Below are positions 2,926-26,368 of a stretch of 26,368 bases of DNA, piece by piece; positions within the stretch are counted from its first letter, which is position 1; every line of letters begins with the position of its first letter. The stretch comes from a virus. The DNA lies in the IMG/VR virus record IMGVR_UViG_3300010153_000090, positions 1-26,368 of that record; one strand, given 5' to 3'. The position numbers and the translations under genes were made by a program. The notes under the pieces were generated by a model that saw only the letters and a list, made by a program, of their open reading frames with translations, made no database searches and was not told the origin of the DNA.

Positions 2926-2939
2926 TAAAAAGCACAAAT

Positions 2940-5175: not shown

Positions 5176-5643
5176 ATGCCCACACAAAGATATGGTATAA
5201 CATTTCCATTTGTTGATAGTTCAGAAGGATTTTTTCTAGGACTAAACACAGATACTGATAGTGAAGTTAGGTCTAACCTTATACATTTAGTGCTTACACC
5301 TAAAGGTTCGAGGTATTTTTTACCAGATTTCGGCACTAATTTAAATAAATATATTTTTGAATTAATGGATACGACAACTAAAATATCTATTGAAAGAGAG
5401 ATAAGAGAAGCCGTAAATAAATACATACCCAATCTAACCATAAACAGTGTGGAGGTAAAAACATTGGAGGATTTAAAGGCAGAAGAAAAACTTAATGAAC
5501 AAAATAACGACCCGTCTATGGACGATGGTAATATGAGTTTTGTTGGGGAAGCACAAAGAAATTATTCTATGAGAGTAAGAATTGATTATACGTCAGGAGA
5601 TGGTGTATTTGAGACTAAAGATTTTGTTATAATAGATTTATAG
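5176..5643 (+). CDS. gp25: Baseplate wedge protein, gp25 / gpW-like
   Basis: A 155-residue protein of the T4 gp25 / P2 gpW lysozyme-like wedge family, which sits at the core of the contractile-tail baseplate and helps start sheath assembly. The family core is plain: NLIHLVLTPKGSRYFLPDFG (35-53), a run on T NLNKYIFE, then IEREIREAVNKYIPNLTINSVEV (about 72-94), ending in a beta-hairpin (MRVRIDYTSGDGVFETKDFVIIDL). An acidic, probably disordered insert (about 95-125) makes it slightly longer than T4 gp25 (132 residues). It begins the structural gene run, and the gp6-like gene starts 1 base after its stop, the usual 25-6 neighbourhood. Confidence 0.88.
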   Translation: MPTQRYGITFPFVDSSEGFFLGLNTDTDSEVRSNLIHLVLTPKGSRYFLPDFGTNLNKYIFELMDTTTKISIEREIREAVNKYIPNLTINSVEVKTLEDLKAEEKLNEQNNDPSMDDGNMSFVGEAQRNYSMRVRIDYTSGDGVFETKDFVIIDL

Positions 5644-7597: not shown

Positions 7598-10500
7598 ATG
7601 GGTAAATCATTTAGAGTAAGAACTGACATTAGAGTTGGAGGTGCGACAGACAAGAATGTAACCTTCGACCTGAATCAGGACTTTGACTTATTAGAAATTC
7701 TTAGTCTTTCTTTAACACAAACAGATGTTTACACTCGTATGTGTGCAGATTTCGGAGTTGTGGTGGGTAGGGTTATCACTAATGGTGGTTTCGGTATCCC
7801 CAACGCAAAAGTTTCTATCTTCGTCCCCCTTACTGATGAAGATGAAAAAAACCAAGTAATAAAACAACTTTATCCATTTAAAGAACCCTTTGACGTAACA
7901 GAAGATGGTAAAAGATACAATCTCCTTAGTAGTGAACCCAATTTTGATTGTCATGTAACGGTAGGTACATTTCCCACACTCAACGATGTTCTAAATCAAC
8001 AGGATGTTAAATATGTGTACGATAAGTATTATAAGTATACTGTGAAAACTAATGAGGCAGGTGATTTTATGATATATGGTGTACCAGTGGGTGACCAGAC
8101 TATAATAATGGATGTTGATGTAAGTGATATAGGTTGTTTCTCATTATTGCCAGAAGATTTTAAAATAAAAGGATATGCAGATTCTGATTTTGACGGGGCA
8201 AAGTTTAAAGATGAAACAGTAATCGATAGTCTACCTCAAATACTAAGTCAACAAAAATCTATAGATATTAGACCTTTTTGGGGGGATGAAGAATTTTGTA
8301 GAGCCGCAATCACGAGGGTAGATTTTGATTTAGGAGCAACCGGATTCAAACTAGAACCTAACGCGGTGTTTATGGGTAGTACCGCATCTGATACGGATAA
8401 AGATTCGGTCAATAGAAACTGTAGACCAAAAGCAGCTATGGGTGAACTTTGTAGTTTAATATCCAAACCAGGAATAATAGACTGTATAAGATACACACCA
8501 TTCTTTGAAAACAACCCAAACGCATACCCTGGATGGGGTGGTGGAGGTTGGGGTGCACCCATAGGGGGTGAAGTACCAATACTAGAAAGATACTATTTAC
8601 CGAACGGAGGTAGAGTCATTGATGATACAGGTTCTTTTTTAGTGCATATACCAATGAATTTGGATTATATGGTAACAAATGAATTTGGGGAGATGGTCCT
8701 ATCGGATGACCCAAGTGTTGGGGTACCAACCAGAACCAGATGTAGGTTTAGGATAAGACCAGAACAAGCAACAGGTGGAGCAAGACAAAGGAGAATTGGG
8801 AGTTACTTAGTACCCAATATTAGAGAATATTATGACCCTTGGGCAGGAAATAATGATGGTGATTGGCCAGGAATAGACCCACGTAGTTATACATTTTCTG
8901 TGGACTATAGTGATTATCACCCATGGGCACAAAGAAATTTAATACCAGCGGCAAAAGATGTATTCTATGACATGACATTTAATAGGGTATACACCTTCTC
9001 ACAATTCCATGACCATATTAAACATGGTGGTCGAAGACAATTTGTGGGTATAAAAAATATATTACCGGAAGCCGACCAACAATGTGCAACGACAGCGATG
9101 TTCTTTCCGATAAATAGTGCAGTAAGAGCTCCTAGTTTAATGGTATTTCTGTGGATGTTCATAATAGATTTTCTAGGGATGATTTATATGTTTTTAACCA
9201 TACTAATATCCACTTTAGCCATATTTTTAAGTTTAATATTAGCTATTATATTAGTTATAATGTGGGCATTATGTTGGTTGTGGTGTGCAATATATTGTAT
9301 TCGTATTACTTTATGGGGTTGGACTATTTTAGATATGCAAAGTCTCATTGGACCTAACGGTGCACCTCCTGAAGAATGTGGGTCTATTTGTATTACGGGT
9401 GCAGGTTGTTTTGGTTGTGGTACTGATTGTTCATATTTTGGACTTAGAATGGGATTTGTTTTATTTACTCTTAGACAAACAAAGTACCCAGAATGTGAAA
9501 AATGTATGTGTAGAACTATGGGGATAATGAGTGTCCCAGATTCACTAATCTACTTATCTAGTCAATGGCCTTGTCCTGGTGGAGTACCAGACAGTGCATC
9601 AGCAACCTCAACGTCTCCTCCAGGTAGTTGTGTGCCCCAATGTCCACCTGGTAATGGGGCTACGGGTGATGATTTTGGTGGTAAGTGGGAACATGATTGT
9701 TGTGCACAAACAGATGAAACTAGAGTGTGTTGCCCAGACCACTATGGGTATAGGTCTGATTTTGGACCAAATACAGCTGGAAGTACAGATGATGGAGTTG
9801 CGGGTGGTGGATGTTATGTTAAATTAATATGCTTTAGCCCTGGGTGTATTGGGCCTAATTATAATCTTACAGTACTTAAAGAATGGGTTAGAAGAGAAAA
9901 AATAGCACAAGCTTTATGTAACGGTGTGATGAATTATTTCTGGGAGAATAGTTGGGTAAGTGGATTCCTATACCAATTCCAATTTAGAGCTAAAGTAGAA
10001 TATGACCCCGCTAATGATACATATGCTACCCAATCCAAATACTGTAAAAAACTGGTATACCTACACCCAACCGAACATACTTTCTTTTATAGGTCAACAC
10101 CATTCCAATGTACTGGAATCGGACCAAGTGATGGTAATTTTATTGGTGATACTGACGGGGTTTACAAACCTTGGTGGATGATTGGGGGTGGAAATTCTAC
10201 CAGCGATATGCATGCCAAAGGAGATATGGACCGCCATATCTTATTCCCAACCACTATGGTAGATATGGGTTCAAGAAACCAATGTATACAACAAATATGT
10301 TTAGACCCTAAATATGCTAATGAGTGTTCTGTTACCGACCAAATAGGAAGTACGACATTCCAGGATATAACAGAACTTATTTCAGATACTTATAATCTTA
10401 AAATGCAACAAGGAGGAGCTTCACTATCTACCTTCTTCCCACGTCCAGAATATGAAATTGGGGGTGATGTTTCACAAGCATTAATGCAAAACTGTATGTT

Positions 10501-11260
10501 AGGTGTTGTTGGGTATGAAGCAAATGTAGGTACAACAGCGTGTGAATGTAGTTACCCTAACGGTCTAGGTTTTGGTGGGTTCTCTACCGCACCAGATGAT
10601 ATAGTACCACTTAGTGGTTTATCTTACCCATCTCCTAATTTTACCGCGGGAACATACATACAAAATGCTCTTAATGTAAATAACTTAGGTAACGAAAACC
10701 CATTTACACACATTCTTCTATGGGAACCTCTACTCTTTACAGCCTCAACTCAAACCATTATGAATGGACAAGATTTAATAGATTGTGTAACACTTGAATT
10801 ATCAGCGTCCAGTCAAAGTGTTCCATTTTACCCATGGCATTTAGATGCTGCGGGTGGGGCTATGTTAGGTGGACAACCAATTGGTGGGTTTGGTACAGTA
10901 TGGAATGATTGGATAGGAACTACAGGGGAATTTAGGTATGCGTTTGGTATACCAGGTCCTTTAATGTCTATATTACCATCTATTAATTATAATACCGCTC
11001 AGGGTAGTGCATTACATGGTATAGGTACACCATTAGTTTATGACGGTGAGTTCCAATCGTATATGGGAGGACCACCTACCGGACCATTCTCCTTTGCCAA
11101 CAATAACTATCCGTTACTTAATGGTGCACCCGCTGTTAGTGATGCTTATGTGTTCTCACAACCACTATTTTATTATTTTGGGTTAAGACCTGGAGCAACA
11201 TCATTCAATACGTTTGTACGGAAATATATCGATGAAGAATTAGCAGACACTGTAATATAA
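7598..11260 (+). CDS. Large virion/baseplate-associated protein with hydrophobic block, 1220 aa
   Basis: A 1220-residue protein of unknown family, placed directly after the gp6-like gene and so probably a virion component. Residues 54-175 look like a carboxypeptidase-regulatory/transthyretin-type beta sandwich: VVVGRVITNGGFGIPNAKVS, then YTVKTNEAGDFMIYGVPVG. A Gly/Trp loop (PGWGGGGWGAP) lies near 310. Residues about 513-576 are almost uninterrupted hydrophobic, from SLMVFLWMFIIDF through LWGWTIL, long enough for two or three membrane helices. Next comes a cysteine-rich stretch (about 585-740), including CFGCGTDC, CEKCMC and CC pairs. The rest is Gly/Asn/Pro-rich beta-like sequence typical of phage structural proteins. 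There is no N-terminal signal peptide. The stop overlaps the next start (TAATG). Expression and operon position are clear; function is not. Confidence 0.8.
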   Translation: MGKSFRVRTDIRVGGATDKNVTFDLNQDFDLLEILSLSLTQTDVYTRMCADFGVVVGRVITNGGFGIPNAKVSIFVPLTDEDEKNQVIKQLYPFKEPFDVTEDGKRYNLLSSEPNFDCHVTVGTFPTLNDVLNQQDVKYVYDKYYKYTVKTNEAGDFMIYGVPVGDQTIIMDVDVSDIGCFSLLPEDFKIKGYADSDFDGAKFKDETVIDSLPQILSQQKSIDIRPFWGDEEFCRAAITRVDFDLGATGFKLEPNAVFMGSTASDTDKDSVNRNCRPKAAMGELCSLISKPGIIDCIRYTPFFENNPNAYPGWGGGGWGAPIGGEVPILERYYLPNGGRVIDDTGSFLVHIPMNLDYMVTNEFGEMVLSDDPSVGVPTRTRCRFRIRPEQATGGARQRRIGSYLVPNIREYYDPWAGNNDGDWPGIDPRSYTFSVDYSDYHPWAQRNLIPAAKDVFYDMTFNRVYTFSQFHDHIKHGGRRQFVGIKNILPEADQQCATTAMFFPINSAVRAPSLMVFLWMFIIDFLGMIYMFLTILISTLAIFLSLILAIILVIMWALCWLWCAIYCIRITLWGWTILDMQSLIGPNGAPPEECGSICITGAGCFGCGTDCSYFGLRMGFVLFTLRQTKYPECEKCMCRTMGIMSVPDSLIYLSSQWPCPGGVPDSASATSTSPPGSCVPQCPPGNGATGDDFGGKWEHDCCAQTDETRVCCPDHYGYRSDFGPNTAGSTDDGVAGGGCYVKLICFSPGCIGPNYNLTVLKEWVRREKIAQALCNGVMNYFWENSWVSGFLYQFQFRAKVEYDPANDTYATQSKYCKKLVYLHPTEHTFFYRSTPFQCTGIGPSDGNFIGDTDGVYKPWWMIGGGNSTSDMHAKGDMDRHILFPTTMVDMGSRNQCIQQICLDPKYANECSVTDQIGSTTFQDITELISDTYNLKMQQGGASLSTFFPRPEYEIGGDVSQALMQNCMLGVVGYEANVGTTACECSYPNGLGFGGFSTAPDDIVPLSGLSYPSPNFTAGTYIQNALNVNNLGNENPFTHILLWEPLLFTASTQTIMNGQDLIDCVTLELSASSQSVPFYPWHLDAAGGAMLGGQPIGGFGTVWNDWIGTTGEFRYAFGIPGPLMSILPSINYNTAQGSALHGIGTPLVYDGEFQSYMGGPPTGPFSFANNNYPLLNGAPAVSDAYVFSQPLFYYFGLRPGATSFNTFVRKYIDEELADTVI

Positions 11261-13041
11261 TGAGTAACGAAAAAAATATACGAATAGTAAGGGGGGAATC
11301 GAAATTTGCAGGGTCCCCAAACAGTGATTTGCGCCTACAACCTTATTTAGATTCCACACAAAAACAAATACACGAAGGAGATAGGAATCTAGTTTTAAAT
11401 CTTAGGGACCAATTTGATTTCGAAAGAGAGTACTCAACACAATATAGATTATACGGTAAAATAGACATATTATTTAATAACATTATAAGTGGGACAACCC
11501 AAGAAACCGATTTTATGGAATCTATGTATTTTATCCCAGACTATATAGGTTGTCCCCAAACGCTAGGGGTACCACCAACTTATTGTTCAGGCCTACCACC
11601 AGCGGAAACATTTACCTTTATACCTTCTAGAAGGTATGGAATCAATCCAAGTAAAGCAGGGTGGGAACCATTACTAGCATCTCAAGATAATTGGGTACAA
11701 TATATATCCTATGTTCATGACGCTGATACTCTACAACCTATGACGTACTATACTGATTATGCCTCAATTTCTGGAATGCAATTTCTAGCAGGAGATGGTA
11801 TACCTTTTACCCCTAGAGTCACAACTACTGATGGTAAAGAAGTATTACAAATAATCACACCTGTAAGGCATGGTGTACTTCCAGGTGAATATATAGAAAT
11901 ACAATCAGGAGCTACCACGTTTGGTGGTGCAAATCTGGTAGTGGATGTGTCTGTAACAGCAACCTATGCTACCCCACCCCAAACGATTTTTAAAATAGAT
12001 TATCTAGGTAACGGGTTAGAAAATTCAGAAGATTACGTAATGAATATTACAACTATAGGTTTAGATGTGACCTCTTTACCCACCGAACCAGTAGGTACAT
12101 TAAAAAGAGTAACAAATCCAGATAATATGTTGGAAACCAAATCTGAATACTATTGTCAAATACATAAACTTATAACCAACCCAAACGACTTTACGTTTGA
12201 CAAAACAGCTTTTGAAAGAGGAATATACAATAAGAAAGGAAGGATATTCCCAGCAAAAAGGACCCCAACATACAATACAAAATCGGTCTTATACCAATCA
12301 TACGACTCATTTTTATGGAATGTTAACAGAAATATCAATAGTGATAGTTACTATGACCAATTTAATAGACCATTAACAGAGTTTTATTTAACAATATTAA
12401 CCACCAACAGAAATTTAATTTGGGATTGGAATTCTGGTGGTAATTCTAGTCCTGCTGGTTATGGTTGGGGTTGGAATTTTAAAAAGAATGGTGTTGTTGA
12501 CCCATTTGTAGATAATGGAGCACACCCAGTCAGTCTAACTCAAAATGGTAATTTAGGTGTTGACCCACTACCACCTAGTGGGTCTACATTTAGAGGAGCT
12601 TTTGCGGAATATAATCCTTTTGAATTAAAAGAAAGGGTAATTTCTGAAATAGGTCATTCTTTAAAATTTAATACAAATACCATGTATAAGGTAGGTGGAA
12701 CACCTGGATATGATTTTGTGGAATCCATATTCAAATATAACCCCCACCATAAAATTCCAGTAAAAAAATTCTCTAATTATATAAGTTATAATGATAGTCT
12801 GTTTACATCGCCCCAGTACGCTGTTTATTCTTTATCAGAGGAAACATTTAGGTGGAGAGAAATTTTACCGGTAGAAACTTATGAAGATGGGGATAATGGG
12901 GTTAGTTATCCATATCTTAATGATGCACACTACCCATACCATAATTTAGAATTTAAAATAGAGGCAGTTGGGCCCGCATTAATCCCACTATCCTCTGGAA
13001 CATTAACTATACTAACAGAATATACAGATGGCTGTCAATAG
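11260..13041 (+). CDS. Hypothetical structural-type protein, 593 aa
   Basis: I do not recognise a family. It is translationally linked on both sides: its ATG shares a base with the preceding stop (TAATG), and its last 14 bases overlap the next gene. This suggests fixed expression ratios within one structural operon. The composition (Tyr, Asn, Thr, Pro, Gly-rich, few Lys clusters, no membrane segment) fits a beta-rich virion protein. The N-terminal 70 residues are charged (RLQPYLDSTQKQIHEGDRN) and may be helical. A middle section (about 195-260) has strand-like alternation, including HGVLPGEYIEIQSGATTFGG. It could be a baseplate, fibre-adaptor or fibre protein. It has only a few cysteines, unlike its neighbours. 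Confidence 0.75.
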   Translation: MSNEKNIRIVRGESKFAGSPNSDLRLQPYLDSTQKQIHEGDRNLVLNLRDQFDFEREYSTQYRLYGKIDILFNNIISGTTQETDFMESMYFIPDYIGCPQTLGVPPTYCSGLPPAETFTFIPSRRYGINPSKAGWEPLLASQDNWVQYISYVHDADTLQPMTYYTDYASISGMQFLAGDGIPFTPRVTTTDGKEVLQIITPVRHGVLPGEYIEIQSGATTFGGANLVVDVSVTATYATPPQTIFKIDYLGNGLENSEDYVMNITTIGLDVTSLPTEPVGTLKRVTNPDNMLETKSEYYCQIHKLITNPNDFTFDKTAFERGIYNKKGRIFPAKRTPTYNTKSVLYQSYDSFLWNVNRNINSDSYYDQFNRPLTEFYLTILTTNRNLIWDWNSGGNSSPAGYGWGWNFKKNGVVDPFVDNGAHPVSLTQNGNLGVDPLPPSGSTFRGAFAEYNPFELKERVISEIGHSLKFNTNTMYKVGGTPGYDFVESIFKYNPHHKIPVKKFSNYISYNDSLFTSPQYAVYSLSEETFRWREILPVETYEDGDNGVSYPYLNDAHYPYHNLEFKIEAVGPALIPLSSGTLTILTEYTDGCQ

Positions 13042-13978
13042 ATTAAATATAAAAGCTTCATTAAAGGATAGGAGTGTGACCATTCCTATAGGTCAAACAT
13101 TTGACGAAATAGGTAATGAACAATTAGTTAGAACTTGGGAAGAGGTAGAATTACAAGATAATATAAATGTAATACAAGATTATGAGACTACTAGATATGC
13201 TCATAAAAATAATGTTGTTAATCTTTATAGTGGTGGAAACAACACCATATCCTACTCATTTGAATTTTGGGATTCTGCAACTAATTCTTATGTAGATAAT
13301 TTTAATGTTTTAGGTTTTTTAAATAAGGATTTAGCTAAACCTAAAAAAGCATTTACTAGGAGTTTTTTTAAGTTTGATTTCTATGACTCACCATTAAGAA
13401 AAGAACAAAAAATAATGTTTACAACTATAATGCCATTAAATAATTGTATTAGAGTGGAAACGCCCGTAGATGAATTTGAAGACCCTATAGAATATTTTTC
13501 TCAGATAGCATCGGGTATATTATTACCTATGTATGGGGTATATGTCCCTACATGTGTTTTAGGCCCCTTACACGGAAGAAGTGAGAATTATTATATCCAG
13601 TGGTTAAAAGACAGAGAATTAACAGAAATTGACGAATTCTATATGAGTTGTAAATTCTTTAACGCAAAAACTGGAAAAGTAAGTAACATGATAAATGAAC
13701 AACCCACATTAAGTCAAATTACTAATGGGGAAATATTAAGTTACCCAGAATGGTTTTACTATAAAGTTAAATTATTTATAAACACCAGTAACGCATCTAC
13801 GACCAACCCAAAATATCGGTATGTGGTTACTCAGTTTAACGAAACTATTATGGCTATAGGGGGAGGGACACCAAGAGGGACTGGGTTACCAGGAGGTACA
13901 CCATCAGGTGCGATTCCAGGTACACTACAAGTACCCAACGCGATGCCAATAAAATTTTATGAATATGTAAGTGCTTAA
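13028..13978 (+). CDS. Hypothetical structural-type protein, 316 aa
   Basis: I do not recognise a family. The start (ATGGCTGTC) lies within the end of the preceding gene, and the giant gene follows after 3 bases, so it is probably co-translated with both. It is a mixed alpha/beta protein with aromatic segments (YSFEFWDSATNSYVDNFNV, FTRSFFKFDFYDSP). Near the C-terminus is a Gly/Pro/Thr-rich flexible linker (GGGTPRGTGLPGGTPSG, about 278-294) followed by a short hydrophobic tail. Linkers of this type are common in fibre-adaptor proteins. A partner or adaptor for the giant cysteine-rich protein is possible but is inferred from position only. Confidence 0.72.
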   Translation: MAVNRLNIKASLKDRSVTIPIGQTFDEIGNEQLVRTWEEVELQDNINVIQDYETTRYAHKNNVVNLYSGGNNTISYSFEFWDSATNSYVDNFNVLGFLNKDLAKPKKAFTRSFFKFDFYDSPLRKEQKIMFTTIMPLNNCIRVETPVDEFEDPIEYFSQIASGILLPMYGVYVPTCVLGPLHGRSENYYIQWLKDRELTEIDEFYMSCKFFNAKTGKVSNMINEQPTLSQITNGEILSYPEWFYYKVKLFINTSNASTTNPKYRYVVTQFNETIMAIGGGTPRGTGLPGGTPSGAIPGTLQVPNAMPIKFYEYVSA

Positions 13979-13981
13979 TAT

Positions 13982-16900
13982 ATGGAAATCCACAAATATA
14001 GAATAAAAAGAAGTAACCCTAGTGTTTACTTCACAGTACCATGTACTGGAGGGACGAATTTCTACCCTATAAATACGAGCACCAATTGTTCCGGGCTTAC
14101 AATGTACAACTCCACATTTAGTCAAGTACAAAACGCTTTACAGGGGGATATGAATAATTTTCCAACAGAGTTAACTGCTTGTTCGACTACTAATCCATGT
14201 GTTTTATTAAATGATACTACTACTATGCCAGTGTATGCACCCGGCCCACCATATGGTAATGTAGCACCAATAGCATCTCCATTTTGTTTAGATGTAGAAT
14301 CACATCCTTATGTGATATTTGCGGGGTTAAACTTATTTCAGGCTGGTGTAATGACATTTACTGGTGAAAGTTATAATGACTTAATAAGTGTGTTCCAGTT
14401 AACACAATCCACCTTATCCCAACCACTTAACACACAAACTACAGCTCATTTAGCAGCTAACACCGTATCTTGTTTTTGTCCACAACCTATTTTCAATGAC
14501 CTATACCAAATACCTTTATTCTTAGACCAAGACTTTAACGATATTGGTCACTATGATATCTGGGATGGTAATGTGGGACAAAAAGACATTTTTTCTAATT
14601 TTATAGTTACGGCAACTACTGCTGTAGGTAACAAAATACAAGTATCTAATACTACTGATTTCGGTTATTACAAGACATATCAAGATTCACCATATACTAT
14701 AGATTGGGGGGACTGCAATTGTAATTGTCCTATACCTCCATGTACAAATTCATTTGGGGACCCTTGTTGTGAAACACTACAATTCCCAACCCTAACCAAC
14801 CCAACACCCCACACTTATGCTGGTGTAGGGACTAGAAGAATTACCATAACACAGGAAAATGAATGGGGACCAACCTCAGTTTCTCAAGTTATATCGGTTC
14901 CTTTTATGCCATATAATACATTACAAGCTCAAACTTATAATGCAGCTGCCAACACAGGAATAGCTCCTAGTAATGCCCCCGTAATAGGACCAAGTGGACC
15001 AGTAGGTACTAATACATATTTTGGAGCATATCCTTTCTCACCTTTAGATTCAGGTACAGATATATTACAATATAGTGGAATGTCTCCAATATTTTATGGT
15101 GGTAACAATAGTAATTGTTTTGACGTTACAGGGAATACACAAAGTCTATTAGGTGCATTCCAGAGTTACACTTCACTATCAACAGGTAATTTACCCCCAG
15201 GATACCAACTGGGTGTGGCGGTACCATTAATGGGGGAAGTGATAAACCCACTAACCAACCAAATAGAACAAGGGGTTACTGGAATGATTACTATTGAAAC
15301 TACACAGTACACCGCTTACACCATTAGTATAGGGACTAATACACCAATAACATTTTATGACTTTAGTAATGGAGTTACTCTTTACGAAGCTGTTAGTTGT
15401 GGGTTAGATGCTTTTGCTTTTGGTGCGTTTGATTGTGTAAAGTGTGAAATAGGGGATTGTACTTATTGTGAAACAAAAGACGAATATATAGATAGAATAA
15501 CAACTCTAGCAGAACCAATAAGTTTTGACCCACTGCTTAACACTAATTGGGGTGAGTGGACTGGTACCACCAACTACATAAAAGGTGATATAGTATTTGA
15601 TTCTACATGGGGAGAATGTTGTTGTTATATGGCAGTAAAAGATATTAATCAGTCAGGGGGAACCATAGACCCTTGGGCCGGTATTAAACCAACAGATATG
15701 ATTCAAGGTGTGTGGTGGTTTAATGGACAACCATCAGAACATGTTTGGGAAGCTTGTACACCAGAATGTGAAGCATGTCCAGATTACACATCAATACCTT
15801 GTTATGACCCAACAAATACCTGGAATGCATACCCAACTATAACACCAGTAGGTCCCGCAGGAGTCTATAGTAATGGGAATGTATATATTACCGGCCAATT
15901 TACATTAGGTCAATGGGGTAATTGTTATAGAGCTTTATCCGGTGGTACATTACCACCCCCATCAGGATTAACAAATAACCAATATTGGGATTATATAGGA
16001 TGTTCTAGTTGGGTTTGTCCACCAGTATCAGCTCAAACAGGACAATCATCAAGTTCTACAGTAACTTGTGAGTTAGTACCAGGAACTGGGACAACAACAG
16101 TTGGACCATGTACCACAATTGGTTATACAGCTTATGAAGATTGTATGACTGATTTTTATCTAGGACAATGTTGTGAAGATAGATGGATTTGTGATGAACA
16201 ATATGCTTGTTCTGGGTGTACAGAAATTTCTTCAGCACATCCTTTATATAATGACCCTAGTGCGTTAGACCCAGCCCAAGGACCAGTTTTTGGTAATGAA
16301 ATGGATTGTTTAGAGTGGTGTGAACCACCGGCTTACTCATGTACTACTAGTAATCCACAAGCAGGGGGTAATTGTTGTAGTTTATTATCATGTCAAGACG
16401 ATTCTTTAAATGGAACAACCTACTATATAGACAATGTATATGCGGTAATGCAAACCTTACCACCAACACCAGCACCTTTTTCAAGCTTTATTGATTATGC
16501 CGCTTTTACTTTTGAATTGTTTTTTGACCCTTATACTCTAAGTGATTGTAATGCAGGGTTCACAAATCCAGCAGGGACTTATAGTGGTTGTTGTGATTGG
16601 GTTAGGTGGGTTTATAATTGTGAAGAAGGATGTAAACCCGTCTATGTAGGTTCAGGTTATGCAACTTCCGGTGATTGTTATGCAGCCAACCCACAATGGT
16701 TAGGGGTTGGAGACACCCCTTGTGGTTGGGACTGCCCAATCCCTTGTGAAGGATGTGTAACAGCAAGTACACTAATGGCACCGTATACCTATGACGCAAC
16801 AGGACTAACCCAATGTGAAATGGTTTGTTCTTGTGCTACGGAATGTTATGTATGTGATTGTTTAAATGAAGTAAATGGAGCAAATGTTCCTTGTTATGCA

Positions 16901-19900
16901 TTTATTAGTGCGGGTACACATACGTGTCCTTATTGGCCCGTTTCTAACACAGGAACGGACCCTTGGGTACCGACATCAGGTCCATATGCGGGAATGGCCA
17001 CCTTTGCATCATCAATTGAATGTCAAAGTGCGTGTACATGTCCTGGGGGATATGATTGTTTTGTGTATGATGATGTACCTTCTAATAGTCCTTCTATAGT
17101 AGGCACACAAGTAGGTGGTTGTACTTATTATGCTAGTGAGTGGGCTATGGCTCAAGTAGGAGTAACATACCCACCAGGTTCACCTACCGACCCTCAAGGA
17201 AACCCAACAGGGTATACTACTTTTGAAGAATGTTGTAACGCAACAGAGTGTTGTCGTGCGGTTTGTGAAGCAGACCCAGCACAGGCTGCATTCATGGGAT
17301 GGACAGCGTACACCACTACAGGTCCTGCACTCCAAAGTGGTGGTGGGGGACAACTACCATGTTATTGGGTATCGCAAAGTGACTTAGATGATACAGAAGG
17401 TCCAGGTTTTGTAAATTGTTGTTCACCAGCATATGTAAATCTAGCTTCAGGTTTATTTGGGATGGCACAATGTTTTATAGACCATCCAGGTTTACCTTAT
17501 TGTGATATGATAGATTGTGTAAATAGTTTATGTCCAGACCCACTGAGTACTACAGGAATGACATGTTGTGTACCACTAGAAGAAACTTGTAATTGTGCGT
17601 GTGAAGACTGGTTAACCGTAAACGGAATACCAATTACTACTGGATTTACTTGGATGGGACCATGGACTAATGTAAATAACACTTATAACATATATGAAAC
17701 CGTAACCTATGGAGATGCAAACACCCCTGATTGTTGTTGGATATGTATGTGTCCGATTGATATAACTGGTTTACCACCAGGAGCAGGAGGGGTTTATGAT
17801 TGTAACTCTAGTCCACCAGATGATGGACCTTACCCTGACGGAACACCAAATTGTTGGCAAACATGTGAAAGATTACCATCTTTTGACCCATCTACACCAA
17901 CACCAGTTATTGGAGACCCTTGTGGTCCTTGTGATACCGTTAGTGGAGATACATATTCTTGTACTGAATCGGGTTGTACACAATCTGCTTGTACGTACAA
18001 TGTACCCACAGGATACAATGTAGCTCAGTGGGAAACCGAAAATAATTGTTATTTAACTACTGATTGTTCCAATGCACTTTCTTTTTATCATGGCCAATGT
18101 AGAGCAGGTTGTTATTGTGCAGACCCAGGACCCCCATCAGGATTTGAAGCTTCAGAAGTCTCAAATTGTGTTGTACTGCAAGATTATATCCTAAATACTG
18201 ATTTGGGTATTAATTATCTTGGTTATTCTCCATACCCATATACATTTCCCCCTGTTGCACCCAGTGTAGTTTTACTATTTCTTGGAGCACCAAGTGGGTA
18301 TTTATGGTCATACGATTCTCTTATAACCTGTGAGACCCAACTATCTACTGGAATGTTTGATTGTTGTACGGGAGGTACAGGAACTACTACGTGGGAATGT
18401 GACTATAGTTGTAACTGCCCACAAGTAAATGGTAATCCATGTTTGGGTGGTGTAGGGTGTTATCCAGTTTATGGTCCCGGAGGAACTTTTGCTTCATTAT
18501 CTGCTTGTCAAGAATGGTGTACATGGGAATGTAATTCTCAAGGTGCACAAACCTGTCAATTTATCCCTATGTCCCTAGCAGCAGTAACTTATACTTCAGC
18601 TGTGGATTGCGAACTCGCAAATGTGGATTGTCTATGTAATAATTATGTAGAAGAATGGTGGTGTGATTGGGCTGGGGCTGATGCGGGATTGTACGATGCG
18701 GTAGGGTCCTCAGCGTGCCGCCCAAGTTCATATATTGGGTTACAAGGAATTTCATACCAAACACAAGCTATTGGACAAGGAGTAGGGGGTCCTTCAGACC
18801 CTACTAATAATTATAATTGGGCGGTAACCCTAGGTAATTTACCAGTGGGACAAGGATTCCCCACACAAGCACAATGTGAAGAGCATTGTAGATTTTGTTG
18901 TGATTGTGCACCTCCAGGGACAGGTGGTTGTGAATTATGTGGTAATCCAGCAACATCACATTGTAATTGGGGTGATTTGACCTGTCTTGGTGGTACAATG
19001 TCTTGTGGTACTGGTTTACCAAGTAGCATTTCACCAGGAAACTGTTCGGACCAACAAATAATTCAAACAGGGTCCAAAAGATGTGAAGAACCACAAACTG
19101 AATATTGTTGTCACGCTATAGATGGGTGTTTATCCTATATTGGAGCAGCACCAAATGGTAGTGATGGTAACCCATGTGTTACTTTCTTTGGAACAAATGC
19201 CGCGGCTTGTACTACAGAATGTAATTTTGTATGTGGGGAATGTGTTCCACCTATAGGAGATTGTCACTGTCAATTTGTTAATGGACCAGTATCACCTTCA
19301 TGTTCTCCATACCCATTTAATACGATGTTAGATTGTGAAAATCATGTTGCTGGACTAATTTTATTAGGGGATGATGGTTCATGTTGTAAATGTTATGAAT
19401 GTCACGCAAATAGCCCTATAACGTACCAAGAGTGGGACGGTACAGCATGGGTACTAGGGTCTACAATCGTTCCAACAGCTTTTGGTGTTTTACCTTGGGT
19501 TTCGGGACAAGCCTACGCAATAGGTGATATTGTTATTGATACTTTTGATAATACTGAGTGTTGTTATGTTTGTGTGTGGGATTATACAACAGACTGGACT
19601 ATCCCACCTTATTTCTACTATCAAGCATATCTTAATGACTTAACTGCGAATACACCAGTTTGGCCAGGAGGTGGTACAGGAAGTTTAATGTGGGTACCAT
19701 GTGATGTTGGTTGTGTACCGGGTGTGGGTACAACAACCTATGATTGTATTCCAGGTGCAATCACAGACAATTGTTCAACTAAAACACTAATAACACCACC
19801 CGTAACTCTGTTATCTAGTTTTGATGTTTTAGAAATGATAGGAAACCCGACAGGGGTACCATACTTACAAACAACTCTTGTTAACACAATAAAATTCCCT

Positions 19901-22741
19901 TATGGTGGATTTGCTGGTAGCATCACCAATGCATGTATACATAATGGTTTGCCACTAGCACAAGATGGGAGTGGTATAAAAATACATAATAGTGTTGCTT
20001 CAGCTCTAGGAATACCATTCGGATACCCATCATGGACTAACATGATTTCCAACCTAGCTAGTGCAGGTGTAACTAACAACGCGGGTAATATAGTTAGTTT
20101 ATCAGACGATTTTGATTCAGTTTGTTTAGCAATAAATGCTGTTTGGGGGTCATATAGGAGAGAGAAATGTATGGACTTTTTACCAGACCCATGTACATGT
20201 ACACAAGACCCTTGTTCGTGTCTATTGATTAATGGACCTACTGGAGAATTCAATAACATAGGAGACTGCCAACAATTATTACTCACTAATCCGTGTTGTG
20301 GTACTTGGGAATGTTCACGCAAGGATTGTGATTGTGTATTCGTACCAAATCTTTTAACTGGATATCCCTCACAAATGGATTGTTGGAATGATAAAAATTG
20401 TTGTGAAGTTCAGTACCCTGAATACGTATGTGACCAAATCCCTATTATAGGTCCTGTAGGTGGTAACAACTATAATTGTGATTGTGTACTAGTACCTAAT
20501 GGTACTGTTGGAGCTTACACAGGCCCAAATGCATTATTTGATTGTGAAAACGACCCAACCACATGTTGTTCAGGTATGACAATGCCAGATAGATGGAAAT
20601 GTACACCAGATTGTAATTGTGTTTTAGGTGACCCATTCAGTCAATATGCTACTTTACACGACTGTCAAACAGCAATCAACCATAATTGTTGTTATACCGG
20701 AGGAACCAAAGAGTGGGAATGTGTTAATTTTGGAAGCCCAACAGGGTGTAAATGTGTACAAACCGCTTCTCCTGGAGGTGGATGGCCTACACAAGCAGAT
20801 TGTGAAGCTCAGGTTAACGATTGTTGTTACACAGGAAAAACAAGATGGGATTGTAAAATAGGTAATAATGGATTATGCAAGTGTGTAAGCAATCCACTAT
20901 TTGGTACATACGCTTCTTTATATGATTGTCAAAATAGTATTGGCACACCAACCAATTGTTGTGAAACTCAATCCGGTGATTGTAAAGACGATTGTAGTAA
21001 AGGAACTATAACACCTACTTACATCGCACATAATGGTACTTACATCATTGGAACTACCGCAACTTACTCACTATCATCAACTAATATTTTAGGTTTATGG
21101 TTATCGGGGACTTATTATAATCTTTTTGATACGGTTAAAGACCCTTACGATGACTGCTGTTATGTTTTAGTACTTGATGGATGTCATTTTATTGGTAGTG
21201 ACATTATGAATTATTCACCTAGTCAAATATACCAAAATCACTTAAATGGGTTCTTCTATAATGGTACAACACTACCAGTATCAACCGCAGAACAATATGC
21301 ACAAAATAGGGGGCCAGTATGGTGGCCATGCGACCCAAAATGCCCAACTAGTAATCCCGATTCAGGTTATGATTGTATTAATTGTCCTGGAACTTGTAAT
21401 TGTGTAGTGAATAATACACCTAGTGCGATGTATCAAGGAGTTAACGCTTTATCACTATGTGTTGCAGACTGTAAATGGGGGTGTGAAGATTGTACTGTTA
21501 ATTTAGCTGGTTATTTAACCGGACCAATGGATTATGAAGGTATGTGGTACTCAACATTTTTACCAGCATATGTAGAAAATGACTGTGTTACTGACCCAGC
21601 TGACGGTTGTTGTTATTGTTGTGTAAGACTCACTTCACCAGGTTCAGGACCACTATCTAAGATTCAATGTAAATCCCAACATCAACCATCATTAAATATA
21701 GGTGTAAATATAGGTGGTGGTGCAACATGGATGGATTGTAAAGCACAAACAAATGGTGACCCATGTAAGGGTGGTCCGAGTACAGTTGATTGTAATAATT
21801 GTGACACTTACATGGCAACTACTTGGGGAGCTACATTACCATTAACATGGAAGGCCAACCCATTATCGTACCAACACTTTAATCCAAATATGTGTGTTTA
21901 CGACCCAAAACATGAATGTTGTTATTGTTGTATGGGTTCACCTAATGGAGACCCTAATGATTTTGGTCCTGGATGGATTGACCACGATGACCCGTTTGAA
22001 GGACCAGGTTTTCCAGCTTCAGCTCCTTGTTCTATATACGATATCGACCCAACTGATGGGAATTGGGAATATTACGGTTCAACAAATATGAATAACGGAA
22101 TAATCTATGGTTGGGTTAGTTGTAGCCCTACACTAGGTGTACCATGTGGTGGTGGGGTAACTAGTATGAACTACGCTTGTACAAACCAACCAGTACTGGG
22201 TAATCCTGGTAATATGGCATGTACACCAGACCCAGCAGGGCCATATACGAGTCTTCCACAATGTCAAAGTTCACCTTGTCCTCCCCCAGTAACCCCATGT
22301 AAAGAGTGTTGTGGGAAACTTAATAAAAATGGAACGTGGACCTACCAAAATCTCCAATCTAATGCGAATCCGTGTGATTGTGAATTTTGGTTGGGAATTG
22401 GGTGGACACCACAACCCTCAAATAAGTGTTGTATACCAAAAAAATGTCCAAAAGGACAGGTTTGGAACCAAGCACAATGTAGGTGTATACCTATAATCAT
22501 TGGGCCTCCCCCTCCTCCTCCTTTTGAGGATGATTGGGTGACTGGAGAACCTTGTATACAAACAGAAAGTTGTGCTAGGGGTCATTATTGGGATTGGGTT
22601 AAATGTGAGTGTGTTAGAGGGGAGGGCCCTTGTACACCACCTATAGAAGGATGTCCAAAAGGACAAGTATGGAATACCGTTACTTGTAGGTGTGAGAAAA
22701 TAATAATTGCACCCGACCCACAATCAGAAATTTTATCATAA
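13982..22741 (+). CDS. Giant cysteine-rich modular protein, 2919 aa, putative surface/adhesion protein
   Basis: A 2919-residue uninterrupted protein with about 250 cysteines by hand count (some 8-9%) and about 30 adjacent CC pairs, encoded mainly by TGT. I do not know a characterised homologue. The first 500 residues are cysteine-poorer and contain a PKD-like domain (about 200-310; DWGD at 241-244, then HTYAGVGTRRITIT). Beyond that are cysteine modules of three kinds. The first is W...GD.V.D..CCY modules resembling CBM5/12 carbohydrate-binding domains (from about 523). The second is W.C-C.CV-DC-CC repeats, six in tandem at 2069-2327. The third is three CxxGxxW...CxC repeats (2822-2904), two of them separated by a PPPPPP linker. 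A cysteine-poor insert lies at about 1931-2066. There is no signal peptide or membrane segment. It sits between wedge genes and overlaps the next gene by 1 base (TAATG). I infer a virion surface protein binding host glycans, stabilised by disulfides or metal. Confidence 0.8.
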   Translation: MEIHKYRIKRSNPSVYFTVPCTGGTNFYPINTSTNCSGLTMYNSTFSQVQNALQGDMNNFPTELTACSTTNPCVLLNDTTTMPVYAPGPPYGNVAPIASPFCLDVESHPYVIFAGLNLFQAGVMTFTGESYNDLISVFQLTQSTLSQPLNTQTTAHLAANTVSCFCPQPIFNDLYQIPLFLDQDFNDIGHYDIWDGNVGQKDIFSNFIVTATTAVGNKIQVSNTTDFGYYKTYQDSPYTIDWGDCNCNCPIPPCTNSFGDPCCETLQFPTLTNPTPHTYAGVGTRRITITQENEWGPTSVSQVISVPFMPYNTLQAQTYNAAANTGIAPSNAPVIGPSGPVGTNTYFGAYPFSPLDSGTDILQYSGMSPIFYGGNNSNCFDVTGNTQSLLGAFQSYTSLSTGNLPPGYQLGVAVPLMGEVINPLTNQIEQGVTGMITIETTQYTAYTISIGTNTPITFYDFSNGVTLYEAVSCGLDAFAFGAFDCVKCEIGDCTYCETKDEYIDRITTLAEPISFDPLLNTNWGEWTGTTNYIKGDIVFDSTWGECCCYMAVKDINQSGGTIDPWAGIKPTDMIQGVWWFNGQPSEHVWEACTPECEACPDYTSIPCYDPTNTWNAYPTITPVGPAGVYSNGNVYITGQFTLGQWGNCYRALSGGTLPPPSGLTNNQYWDYIGCSSWVCPPVSAQTGQSSSSTVTCELVPGTGTTTVGPCTTIGYTAYEDCMTDFYLGQCCEDRWICDEQYACSGCTEISSAHPLYNDPSALDPAQGPVFGNEMDCLEWCEPPAYSCTTSNPQAGGNCCSLLSCQDDSLNGTTYYIDNVYAVMQTLPPTPAPFSSFIDYAAFTFELFFDPYTLSDCNAGFTNPAGTYSGCCDWVRWVYNCEEGCKPVYVGSGYATSGDCYAANPQWLGVGDTPCGWDCPIPCEGCVTASTLMAPYTYDATGLTQCEMVCSCATECYVCDCLNEVNGANVPCYAFISAGTHTCPYWPVSNTGTDPWVPTSGPYAGMATFASSIECQSACTCPGGYDCFVYDDVPSNSPSIVGTQVGGCTYYASEWAMAQVGVTYPPGSPTDPQGNPTGYTTFEECCNATECCRAVCEADPAQAAFMGWTAYTTTGPALQSGGGGQLPCYWVSQSDLDDTEGPGFVNCCSPAYVNLASGLFGMAQCFIDHPGLPYCDMIDCVNSLCPDPLSTTGMTCCVPLEETCNCACEDWLTVNGIPITTGFTWMGPWTNVNNTYNIYETVTYGDANTPDCCWICMCPIDITGLPPGAGGVYDCNSSPPDDGPYPDGTPNCWQTCERLPSFDPSTPTPVIGDPCGPCDTVSGDTYSCTESGCTQSACTYNVPTGYNVAQWETENNCYLTTDCSNALSFYHGQCRAGCYCADPGPPSGFEASEVSNCVVLQDYILNTDLGINYLGYSPYPYTFPPVAPSVVLLFLGAPSGYLWSYDSLITCETQLSTGMFDCCTGGTGTTTWECDYSCNCPQVNGNPCLGGVGCYPVYGPGGTFASLSACQEWCTWECNSQGAQTCQFIPMSLAAVTYTSAVDCELANVDCLCNNYVEEWWCDWAGADAGLYDAVGSSACRPSSYIGLQGISYQTQAIGQGVGGPSDPTNNYNWAVTLGNLPVGQGFPTQAQCEEHCRFCCDCAPPGTGGCELCGNPATSHCNWGDLTCLGGTMSCGTGLPSSISPGNCSDQQIIQTGSKRCEEPQTEYCCHAIDGCLSYIGAAPNGSDGNPCVTFFGTNAAACTTECNFVCGECVPPIGDCHCQFVNGPVSPSCSPYPFNTMLDCENHVAGLILLGDDGSCCKCYECHANSPITYQEWDGTAWVLGSTIVPTAFGVLPWVSGQAYAIGDIVIDTFDNTECCYVCVWDYTTDWTIPPYFYYQAYLNDLTANTPVWPGGGTGSLMWVPCDVGCVPGVGTTTYDCIPGAITDNCSTKTLITPPVTLLSSFDVLEMIGNPTGVPYLQTTLVNTIKFPYGGFAGSITNACIHNGLPLAQDGSGIKIHNSVASALGIPFGYPSWTNMISNLASAGVTNNAGNIVSLSDDFDSVCLAINAVWGSYRREKCMDFLPDPCTCTQDPCSCLLINGPTGEFNNIGDCQQLLLTNPCCGTWECSRKDCDCVFVPNLLTGYPSQMDCWNDKNCCEVQYPEYVCDQIPIIGPVGGNNYNCDCVLVPNGTVGAYTGPNALFDCENDPTTCCSGMTMPDRWKCTPDCNCVLGDPFSQYATLHDCQTAINHNCCYTGGTKEWECVNFGSPTGCKCVQTASPGGGWPTQADCEAQVNDCCYTGKTRWDCKIGNNGLCKCVSNPLFGTYASLYDCQNSIGTPTNCCETQSGDCKDDCSKGTITPTYIAHNGTYIIGTTATYSLSSTNILGLWLSGTYYNLFDTVKDPYDDCCYVLVLDGCHFIGSDIMNYSPSQIYQNHLNGFFYNGTTLPVSTAEQYAQNRGPVWWPCDPKCPTSNPDSGYDCINCPGTCNCVVNNTPSAMYQGVNALSLCVADCKWGCEDCTVNLAGYLTGPMDYEGMWYSTFLPAYVENDCVTDPADGCCYCCVRLTSPGSGPLSKIQCKSQHQPSLNIGVNIGGGATWMDCKAQTNGDPCKGGPSTVDCNNCDTYMATTWGATLPLTWKANPLSYQHFNPNMCVYDPKHECCYCCMGSPNGDPNDFGPGWIDHDDPFEGPGFPASAPCSIYDIDPTDGNWEYYGSTNMNNGIIYGWVSCSPTLGVPCGGGVTSMNYACTNQPVLGNPGNMACTPDPAGPYTSLPQCQSSPCPPPVTPCKECCGKLNKNGTWTYQNLQSNANPCDCEFWLGIGWTPQPSNKCCIPKKCPKGQVWNQAQCRCIPIIIGPPPPPPFEDDWVTGEPCIQTESCARGHYWDWVKCECVRGEGPCTPPIEGCPKGQVWNTVTCRCEKIIIAPDPQSEILS
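14580..14910 (+). other. PKD-like domain in the giant protein
   Basis: Residues about 200-310 include TIDWGD (239-244) and later HTYAGVGTRRITITQENEWG, the two hallmarks of PKD/Ig-like domains (WGDG near the start, HTY.. G.Y.V.V near the end). A cysteine-rich insert (CNCNCPIPPC and following) separates them. Such domains usually act as spacers or adhesion modules on cell-surface and phage-tail proteins. The boundaries are approximate. Confidence 0.5.
15548..22080 (+). repeat. Dispersed CBM5/12-like 'CCY' modules in the giant protein
   Basis: At least six modules share the order W, 6-9 residues, Y or F, two residues, (G)D-x-V-x-D, 3-8 residues, CC[YW], then a later W-x-C. They lie at about 15548-15769, 17651-17803, 19496-19714, 21098-21343, 21545-21664 and 21824-22080; a weaker one is at 15821-16019. 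The shared cores read VFDSTWGECCCY, VIDTFDNTECCYVC, VKDPYDDCCY, VTDPADGCCYCC and VYDPKHECCYCC. The W..Y..GD.V...Y order resembles CBM5/12 (chitin-binding type 3) domains, but their usual WW motif is not clear in all copies. The repeat is seen directly; the glycan-binding role is inferred. Confidence 0.6.
20186..20962 (+). repeat. Six tandem W.C-C.CV-DC-CC repeats in the giant protein
   Basis: Residues 2069-2327 hold six units of about 35-50 residues. Each has (W)x-C, then C-x-C-[VL], an aromatic or Gly-rich turn such as GTYASLYDC or SQYATLHDC, then a CC pair. Units 5 and 6 are joined by near-identical text (NCCYTGGTKEWEC and DCCYTGKTRWDC) that is also similar at DNA level, pointing to recent tandem duplication. 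Looser relatives occur earlier (near 16600-16690 and 18390-18900). Six cysteines per unit is consistent with small disulfide-bonded domains. I cannot name a family with certainty. Confidence 0.65.
22445..22693 (+). repeat. Three C-terminal CxxGxxW...CxC repeats
   Basis: Near the C-terminus are CPKGQVWNQAQCRC, CARGHYWDWVKCEC and CPKGQVWNTVTCRC (residues 2822-2904). The first and third share a near-identical DNA stretch (TGTCCAAAAGGACA at 22445 and 22652). A six-proline linker lies between the first and second. They could be a small disulfide-bonded binding or anchoring module. Confidence 0.65.
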
Positions 22742-23370
22742 TGAAAAGTTTAAAAGAAGAAATAGATTTCGGAAAGACGTTTAAATTTGAAGTAGGGCCA
22801 ATTAAAGTTACAAAAAAATTGTATAGACCAACTCTTAAAAGGTTTGAAAAATGGTTAAATATAATAGAAAATAAACCATATTTTAATAATTTTGATTTAT
22901 TGTTAACTGGTTCTTTCCCTAATTATATTAATGGTAATTTAACTTGGAAAAGTTGGGATATAGATATTATTTTAATTGATGATGGGGATAATACTTTAGA
23001 ATCCATTAGAGACACATTGGTAGATTTATCACGAATAGCGTTAGAACAATGTGATTTTTATATAGATGTTTATTACCAAAATAGAGAAAATGTAGAATTA
23101 AATAAAGTTTGTTATAGAGGAGGGATAAAAAATTGTAAACCTTATAGTTTTGAAAAAGTAGGGTTAGCTTATGCTCCTCATGTTAAAAGAGATGGTAGAA
23201 TAGTCTCTAATTGGAATATAGATGAGGAAGTTATTGAGGGATTGTGGGTTACCAGACTACAATTTCCATCCCAAAAACAAATAGAAAGAATAAACAAAGG
23301 ATTCAAATACGATGATGAGATTTATTTAAGAGATTATAAAAAATATTTTACCACATCAGAATCAGTATAG
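22741..23370 (+). CDS. Nucleotidyltransferase-like protein in the structural operon
   Basis: A 209-residue protein whose centre matches the Pol-beta-type nucleotidyltransferase core: LLLTGSFPN (G57, S58), then WDIDIILID (D73, D75) 14 residues later, and a possible third carboxylate in FYIDVYY (D109). That spacing is slightly longer than the usual 9-13. The N-terminal 50 residues look helical, and the C-terminal part (KQIERINKGFKYDDEIYLRDYKKYF) is strongly basic/acidic helical. The substrate cannot be predicted; candidates include nucleotide transfer to a protein, sugar or RNA. Its ATG shares a base with the stop of the giant gene (TAATG), so it is translationally coupled to it. Its lysine-rich, cysteine-poor composition contrasts with that gene. 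The stop is TAG. Confidence 0.65.
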   Translation: MKSLKEEIDFGKTFKFEVGPIKVTKKLYRPTLKRFEKWLNIIENKPYFNNFDLLLTGSFPNYINGNLTWKSWDIDIILIDDGDNTLESIRDTLVDLSRIALEQCDFYIDVYYQNRENVELNKVCYRGGIKNCKPYSFEKVGLAYAPHVKRDGRIVSNWNIDEEVIEGLWVTRLQFPSQKQIERINKGFKYDDEIYLRDYKKYFTTSESV

Positions 23371-23405: not shown

Positions 23406-23627
23406 ATGGCATTAAACGAAGTAAAAGTAACTGGGTGTATTTTACCTTTAACAAAATTAGAGGTATTAATGAATGTGTGCCAAAGACCAGAAGTAAGGTC
23501 AAATATATTTATTGAAAGGGGTAAAATAACAGTATTTGAAAAACCACAAAGATTAGGACAAATAAATAGTACCGGTGATTTAGAATTACATGGATACGGC
23601 TATTATAAAGTAGATAAACAACCATAG
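23406..23627 (+). CDS. Hypothetical small structural-type protein, 73 aa
   Basis: A 73-residue protein with no family I recognise. It is predicted to be mostly beta (ALNEVKVTGCILPLTKLEV, SNIFIERGKITVFEK, DLELHGYGYYKV) and has two cysteines and no membrane segment. It is bounded upstream by the repeated 14-base motif and followed after 3 bases by the 306-aa gene. The first three codons of both genes are identical (ATGGCATTA). Its place among baseplate genes suggests a small wedge or adaptor component, by context only. Confidence 0.72.
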   Translation: MALNEVKVTGCILPLTKLEVLMNVCQRPEVRSNIFIERGKITVFEKPQRLGQINSTGDLELHGYGYYKVDKQP

Positions 23628-24556: not shown

Positions 24557-26368
24557 ATGGCTAGTAATCGATTTAGATATCCACCGGCCCCTAACAACGG
24601 AGGGGATACATTTAGTGATTTTTTAGTCGGAAATCAATACATGGGGTCACAACAAATGACCCTGGGGAATTTTTACACCCAACCTTCATATAATCAACCA
24701 ACACCCCCACAATATAATTTAGGTACATTTTCTAGTCCGATAACACTAGAATCTTTAAGTAATGAAAGTTTAGCGTTAGCTCAAAAATTAACAAGTAATA
24801 GTTTAGAAGTTTTTGTTAATAATGATATGAGTGAAATATCTAGTTTTGTGTTGTATGGGTCATTAAAAAAACGTTTATCGGTAGCCACTCAAAACATCGT
24901 TAATTTTTTTCCCGCAGCATTATTTGTAGATGGGGTTAATGCCAACTATGTTTCTGGTAATACTACAGCTTATGATATATTATATAGTTTAAGTACTGAA
25001 GAAACTACCTTTAAAACAAATGTAAATATACTTTCTAACCCATTTAATCTTGAATTCACAGTAAATGGTAATCTTTTAACAGGGCATATAAGTAAAGAAC
25101 AAATAATAAATAATTTTAATACTTTTGGGGTGTCCGCAGATACCTTATTAAGTATTGCTGACGGGACCGTATCCCCAATTAGGAATATAACTACTGAATT
25201 TAAGAAATACGCTTTAAGTTTTAGTGGTCAAATCGGGGAAAAAGAATATAGAATTAAAGAATTTAAACCACAAACTACAACTAACGACTATATAGAATTC
25301 ACTGTAAAAGGTAACCCATTCAACCTACCAGAGACCGGAGGAACAATAGTAACCTCAACAATAGAAACCTTTTATATAAAGCCAACACAAAATCAAACAC
25401 AGGAAGAATTTAATAATTTTAATAATGTAGAAAAATTCTTACTTAACAGAGACATAACCCCGATATACACTTCTGTTTTCCAAGTAGTAAAAGAAACTAC
25501 AAATGGTGTAAAATATTATGGGAAAGTAAAACAAACTTGGCCTTTAGAAGATAATGTAAATATAGATGTAACTAGTGATAGGTATACTAACTATTTAATA
25601 AAATTAGCGGATTTAGGGGATGAAATTGACAGAGAAAAAACAAATTTAGTTTCTAGATTCTTAACCGCACCCCAACTAAAGGAATTTGATGGCACAAACC
25701 AACACATAGAAAAAACACTACAGATTTATGGTAGAAGTTTTGACGACATAAAAACTTTTGTTGATGGTATAGCTTATATGACTAATGTGGCGTATGATAA
25801 CAAAAATACTATACCTAATGAATTAATAAAGAATTTTGCAAAAACTTTAGGTTGGTCAACACCAAGTACATTAAATAACACTACATTCTTAGATAGTGTT
25901 TTAGGGGTTAGTACCCCAGAATATTCAGGAACCAGTATAGCCAAAACACCAGCAGAATTAGATATTGAATTATATAAAAGAATATTACTTAATACCGCTT
26001 ATTTATTTAAGTCAAAAGGAACAAGAAAATCTATAGAATTTCTTTTAACTTTATTAGGGGCACCAGAAGCTTTAGTAGAGTTTAATGAATATGTTGTTAT
26101 AGCTGGGGCACCAATTAATTTAAATCCTGGCGTGAGATTCCAGTGGACAAAAAATCAAGGTGGGGATATTGCGGAATATAAAACCATACAAAATAAATTT
26201 GATTATCAGTGGGAAAAAATATCAGGTGGGTCGTACACAACTGATACTCTACAATATAGTATACCATTTGCCCAATATTATATACGAACAGGCACAACAT
26301 TTAATCCATTTATTTTAGACGACTACCCAATAGACCAACAAGGATACCCAACCAAACCAAGATATACA
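24557..26368 (+). CDS. Baseplate/tail protein, P2 gpI / T4 gp7-like (partial, runs off the window)
   Basis: An open frame from ATG at 24557 to the window end (604 codons, no stop), so the C-terminus is missing. The recognisable part is LYKRILLNTAYLFKSKGTRK (472-491), followed by SIEFLLTLLGAPEALVEFNEYVV. The 'hKGT ... hhLhhhG' pattern is that of the P2 gpI tail-protein family, whose T4 wedge counterpart is gp7. Just before it, VDGIAYMTNVAYDN and TIPNELIKNFAKTLGWS resemble the helical lead-in common in large-phage versions. The N-terminal 60 residues are Pro/Gln/Asn-rich and probably disordered. It would complete the gp25-gp6-gp7 wedge set. The start has no Shine-Dalgarno, and the alternative is much further downstream. 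The family call is moderate. Confidence 0.7.
   Translation, partial: MASNRFRYPPAPNNGGDTFSDFLVGNQYMGSQQMTLGNFYTQPSYNQPTPPQYNLGTFSSPITLESLSNESLALAQKLTSNSLEVFVNNDMSEISSFVLYGSLKKRLSVATQNIVNFFPAALFVDGVNANYVSGNTTAYDILYSLSTEETTFKTNVNILSNPFNLEFTVNGNLLTGHISKEQIINNFNTFGVSADTLLSIADGTVSPIRNITTEFKKYALSFSGQIGEKEYRIKEFKPQTTTNDYIEFTVKGNPFNLPETGGTIVTSTIETFYIKPTQNQTQEEFNNFNNVEKFLLNRDITPIYTSVFQVVKETTNGVKYYGKVKQTWPLEDNVNIDVTSDRYTNYLIKLADLGDEIDREKTNLVSRFLTAPQLKEFDGTNQHIEKTLQIYGRSFDDIKTFVDGIAYMTNVAYDNKNTIPNELIKNFAKTLGWSTPSTLNNTTFLDSVLGVSTPEYSGTSIAKTPAELDIELYKRILLNTAYLFKSKGTRKSIEFLLTLLGAPEALVEFNEYVVIAGAPINLNPGVRFQWTKNQGGDIAEYKTIQNKFDYQWEKISGGSYTTDTLQYSIPFAQYYIRTGTTFNPFILDDYPIDQQGYPTKPRYT

Follow-up and report, generated by a model that had tools for sequence, protein, structure and literature searches.

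What is a phage doing with a single protein of nearly three thousand residues, roughly one in twelve of them cysteine, encoded among the genes of its baseplate? The protein comes from a 26.4-kb linear IMG/VR record (26,368 nucleotides, the window). It raises the questions of how some 250 cysteines are accommodated during synthesis in a reducing cytoplasm and at what point they become oxidized. A sequence-only reading had suggested a disulfide- or metal-stabilized adhesion structure, and our goal was to see how far that suggestion holds.

A cysteine-rich giant in a baseplate operon

The ORF is uninterrupted and encodes 248 Cys in 2919 residues (8.5%) with 29 CC pairs, so the size and composition given earlier (about 250 Cys, about 30 CC) were right. 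The calculated mass is 313 kDa, the pI is about 4 and Lys plus Arg make up 2.4%, which makes the protein acidic and poor in basic residues. The remaining proteome of related contigs contains 1.1-1.2% Cys, from which about 34 Cys would be expected in the giant (z about 37). To our knowledge it would be among the most Cys-dense large phage proteins described.

The giant starts 3 nt past the preceding gene and shares one base with the next, and most gaps in the operon are short or overlapping. The genes for gp25 and gp6/J lie upstream on the same strand, which confirms the baseplate operon setting (Table 1). The more specific claim that the giant lies between wedge genes is established on the upstream side only. 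Downstream, the gene at the window end is probably structural; it is distantly homologous to a gene without annotation that comes three genes after gp6 in the phages immuto and Mel-JY01. Before the operon lie a 5'-3' exonuclease gene (Pfam) and two genes that we take from their translations to encode a DnaB-like helicase and a ribonucleotide reductase. Raised Cys content is seen in the giant and the 1220-residue partner (3.3%), against 1.1-1.2% for the rest of related contigs, and we infer the virion status of these two proteins from operon position. Loci that extend far enough have the partner on the upstream side of the core gene. Its long internal hydrophobic stretch has a counterpart at a similar position in 14 of 14 homologues checked, some of which have more such stretches, and could possibly be a membrane-inserting part of the baseplate.

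Table 1. Features of the window, with residue numbers of the giant where applicable
Feature	Positions	Strand	Residues	Basis or remark
gp25 baseplate wedge	5176..5643	+		Pfam GPW_gp25 1e-11; PHROG 261
gp6 / baseplate J	5645..7483	+		Pfam Baseplate_J 1e-10; PHROG 6
Partner gene	7598..11260	+	1220 aa	40 Cys; hydrophobic stretch aa 511-570
Operon gene	11260..13041	+	593 aa	
Conserved gene directly upstream of giant	13028..13978	+	316 aa	Bait for finding the family
Giant Cys-rich protein	13982..22741	+	2919 aa	ATG start; 248 Cys
Conserved N-terminal core	13982..15778	+	aa 1-599	
PKD-like domain	14600..14899	+	aa 207-306	Foldseek prob 1.00, TM 0.70
CBM5/12-like motif W..Y..GD.V...CC[YF].AV...W..C	15557..15778	+	aa 526-599	Alignment
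Further CBM5/12-like motif core	17678..17740	+	aa 1233-1253	Pattern only
Two copies of ~40-aa Cys module	18404..18664	+	aa 1475-1561	HMM i-E 3.7e-8, 1.7e-5
CBM5/12-like motif	19514..19567	+	aa 1845-1862	Conserved CCY and W..PC
Tandem array of six Cys modules (C-x-C ... GxYxSxxDC ... CC)	20198..20971	+	aa 2073-2330	
CBM5/12-like motif	21113..21163	+	aa 2378-2394	Pattern only
Two CCYCC CBM5/12-like motifs	21569..21925	+	aa 2530-2648	Direct DNA repeat, 72% identical
C-terminal repeats CxxGxxWxxxxCxC	22427..22693	+	aa 2816-2904	Read from sequence
Gene whose start overlaps the giant's stop	22741..23370	+	209 aa	
Small protein	23406..23627	+	73 aa	Conserved across family
Putative structural gene	24557..26368 (cut by window end)	+		1063 aa in relative L003

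Family and module architecture

Searching IMG/VR with the giant itself recovered 5 close relatives. With the 316-residue gene as query this became 23 loci, and a profile of the N-terminal region gave 44 IMG/VR loci. Across the family the core gene sits at the same place, after the 316-residue gene, and the intact ORFs come from many separate metagenome assemblies. The giant has no match in Pfam, PHROGs (tail families included), PDB (phmmer) or INPHARED (tblastn); no relative appeared among 50,697 phage records (the best of one search reached only E 0.5), in a plasmid search, or in a pattern and profile search of GTDB genomes with the core. The earlier statement that there is no characterized counterpart thus agrees with all the collections searched. 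A lineage of uncultured viruses is set apart by this family, whose gene has no relative in the cultured-phage collection searched (INPHARED).

The smallest complete member has 777 aa and 28 Cys, the largest 2991 aa and 255 Cys. A core tree with midpoint rooting sets the single giants (2440-2991 aa) apart from shorter proteins (777-1253 aa), with a support of 1.0 for the shorter group, a low 0.20 for the giant node, and 0.94-0.98 for the two nodes nested in it. Members of the shorter group carry a second gene (225-1078 aa) behind the core gene. This second gene is usually rich in Cys and ends in the domain that is a free protein in the giant group, in the window as the 73-residue ORF. Because it is fused to the second gene in the sister group, the 73-residue protein belongs to the system of the giant, where it may perhaps act as an anchor.

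All members share the core from about residue 176, with an invariant DxNDxGxY...DG...FxNF around residues 184-207. Residues 207-306 match PKD1 of V. cholerae PrtV (4l9d), and this predicted fold supports the presence of a PKD domain in the core. The PKD motif reads WGDC in the window protein and WGDG in the shorter relatives. Two relatives (L058 and L021) have Pfam PKD matches of E 0.002-0.007, under the cut-off. The nearest viral structure to the core is likewise an uncultured-phage PKD protein (E 3e-15); BFVD entry A0A6J5L9U6, a PKD domain protein of an uncultured Caudovirales phage, has 26% identity to the core over 341 columns, but the library entry is only 364 aa and lacks the long Cys-rich part.

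Several copies of the motif W..Y..GD.V...Y... liken the giant to CBM5/12 modules, from which it differs in having CC where the usual residues stand and in matches that remain under the Pfam cut-off. PF02839 reaches E 0.001-0.07 in four relatives, all under the curated cut-off (L058, L062 and L068, in the region corresponding to residues 526-599, and once in L021), and the window protein itself has no match to this Pfam family. The roughly 2300 residues past the core hold more CBM-like CC[YFW] motifs and nine Cys modules of about 40 aa (i-E < 0.01), clustering at residues 2073-2330. The small modules carry 4-6 Cys each and the tandem ones vary in copy number between relatives, which bears out the modular make-up proposed for the protein. 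The C-terminal repeats are also found in L003 and L012. Of the two structure models, with middling pLDDT values of 66 and 62, the latter (AlphaFold2, residues 1690-2345) had no PDB match and no known fold. Half of the module, GxYxSxxxCxxxC, is weakly like anntoxin and ornithodorin, both Kunitz-type proteins, but this likeness is not significant (E 0.8-1.4) and the rest of the Cys pattern differs.

Two of the shorter relatives (L072 10001-12622 and L021 10870-13830) contain dockerin/EF-hand-like repeats, seen as weak Pfam hits, together with GCTDPxAxNYNPxAT-like repeats.

Cysteine constraint and the likely state of the protein

The window protein and its L003 relative are 72% identical overall, with 244 of 244 aligned Cys kept in the pairwise alignment (243 of 244 in a 16-sequence alignment) and 70% of the other residues conserved. 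Relatives with 32-40% identity retain 81-93% of the Cys and 28-35% of the other residues, making Cys the most conserved residue of the family. The dN/dS values of five pairs are 0.20-0.33, a clear sign of purifying selection, and the family is a genuine, uncharacterized and strongly constrained one. This pattern of Cys conservation is what structural disulfides would leave, with metal ligands being less likely. We also tried to use the joint loss of Cys pairs as proof of pairing. With two poorly aligned sequences excluded, the signal is weakly above that of shuffles (26 of 1000 reach the value) and Thr gives a similar one, and we do not rely on it.

These observations lead us to a reading in which the giant is probably an acidic, glycan-binding adhesin attached to the baseplate, armoured by disulfides and oxidized at or after lysis. 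The N-terminal core of about 600 residues would dock beside the gp25 and gp6 wedges, with the PKD domain, the CBM5/12-like modules and the long chain of small Cys modules pointing outward, where they could bind glycans on host or particle surfaces. The protein would be synthesized reduced in the cytoplasm. By eye it has no hydrophobic start resembling a signal peptide, and no TM-like stretch was found; release would therefore be by lysis and not by export. Lysis would then expose it to oxic water, disulfides would form, and the product may be an appendage that resists shear and proteases. Disulfide state, location in the virion, ligand and timing of oxidation are all inferred here. The reading is supported by the operon position, the tight coupling to neighboring genes, the constant place of the core gene across the family, the Cys constraint, the purifying selection, the acidity and scarcity of Lys and Arg, the PKD fold and the recurrent sub-threshold CBM5/12 matches, as well as by the variation in module copy number and by further Cys-rich giants that carry this module too (13 and 3 copies, in the 210-kb contig of the relative L047). 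The adhesion part of the earlier proposal thus gains from the PKD fold and in part from the CBM5/12 matches.

Disulfide-bonded virions are known from the Agrobacterium phages Milano and 7-7-1 (PMC10811340, PMC12796354). The structural proteins of Milano contain 2.1% Cys and form extensive disulfides in the virion, including those of the sheath, baseplate and receptor-binding proteins (PMC10811340), which qualifies the earlier remark that phage proteins are rarely Cys-rich. The likeness to these phages lies in a contractile tail and in raised Cys in structural proteins, which the giant and its partner putatively are. The Milano figure is an average over structural proteins, with bonds that are partly locks between chains, whereas 8.5% is reached here within one modular protein of 2919 aa. 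Disulfide-bonded baseplates are therefore already known, but we found no precedent for this density of cysteine.

The Milano precedent also suggests an alternative, in which disulfides between subunits act as a lock on the baseplate or tail fibres that opens in a reducing environment at the host, as has been speculated for that phage, whose disulfides lie in both baseplate and fibres. The 40 Cys of the 1220-residue partner would fit such a latch. However, many of the giant's Cys lie in small repeated modules, for which local bonds within a module fit better than a few cross-links, and gp6, gp25 and the 316-residue protein are poor in Cys. We consider the latch unlikely.

Metal binding is another way in which such a protein could fold in a presumably reducing cytoplasm, with Zn or Fe held by the Cys, and no thioredoxin was found in 11 contigs, which fits this idea. 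The spacing of the Cys speaks against it. C-x2-C, as expected of Zn ribbons or metal clusters, is not enriched (23 observed, 20.7 expected), only three close C-x2-C pairs are present and His makes up 1%. The spacings that do exceed composition are C-x10-C (z 4.3), C-x3-C (2.7) and C-x-C (2.3), while the 29 CC pairs show a slight excess over the 21 expected (z 1.9) and mostly follow from composition. In our judgement the modules also look like small extracellular disulfide domains. Stabilization by metal thus appears improbable, and of the two options first offered it is the disulfide one that is favored.

It is similarly hard to credit a purely structural or scaffolding role, in which the length of the protein would set a dimension of the virion. 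The great length, the baseplate operon and the presence of the N-terminal core in every member are what such a role would predict, but lengths across the family differ nearly fourfold with changing repeat number, and PKD and CBM-like modules are more in keeping with an adhesin. Finally, an assembly artefact or false gene fusion, conceivable for so long a single ORF with a two-gene sister group and a worry attached to the original claim of an unbroken frame, is ruled out by the uninterrupted ORFs of more than twelve divergent homologues from many assemblies, near-identical pairs from different metagenomes and the dN/dS values.

More tentatively, the protein might represent a new class of phage appendage with about 100 or more disulfides per chain, built from an expandable kit of small Cys modules that also serves several other giants of the phage. 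Folding would wait until the protein is released into oxic water, so that oxygen from the environment completes the maturation of the virion. Such a kit illustrates a way in which phages may construct surface proteins of very large size.

Related phages and their contigs

By gp6, and by the terminase and sheath sequences of related contigs, the nearest phages are Flavobacterium phage immuto, Microcystis phage Mel-JY01 and an uncultured 484-kb phage, at 25-36% identity. The first two are the nearest cultured relatives, and in their baseplate regions we found no homologue of the giant, the 316-residue gene or the 1220-residue gene. Host prediction with a DegT-like aminotransferase pointed to mixed phyla. 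Glutaredoxin-like genes occur in 10 of 15 contigs; since phage ribonucleotide reductases are often accompanied by such genes, we did not count them as evidence.

The other large Cys-rich ORFs carrying the ~40-residue module were located at L098 14122-19998 and L099 1-2968 (both minus strand; 13 and 3 copies). At L098 8867-14089, on the minus strand of a related 210-kb phage contig, a Cys-rich giant of 1740 aa (5.2% Cys) includes a PT-HINT/intein-like domain (Pfam E 1.5e-21). A phage contig, L097, contains a tmRNA gene at 11559-11967 (RF00023, 123 bits) and, judged by sequence, a DnaK-like gene at 2878-4749.
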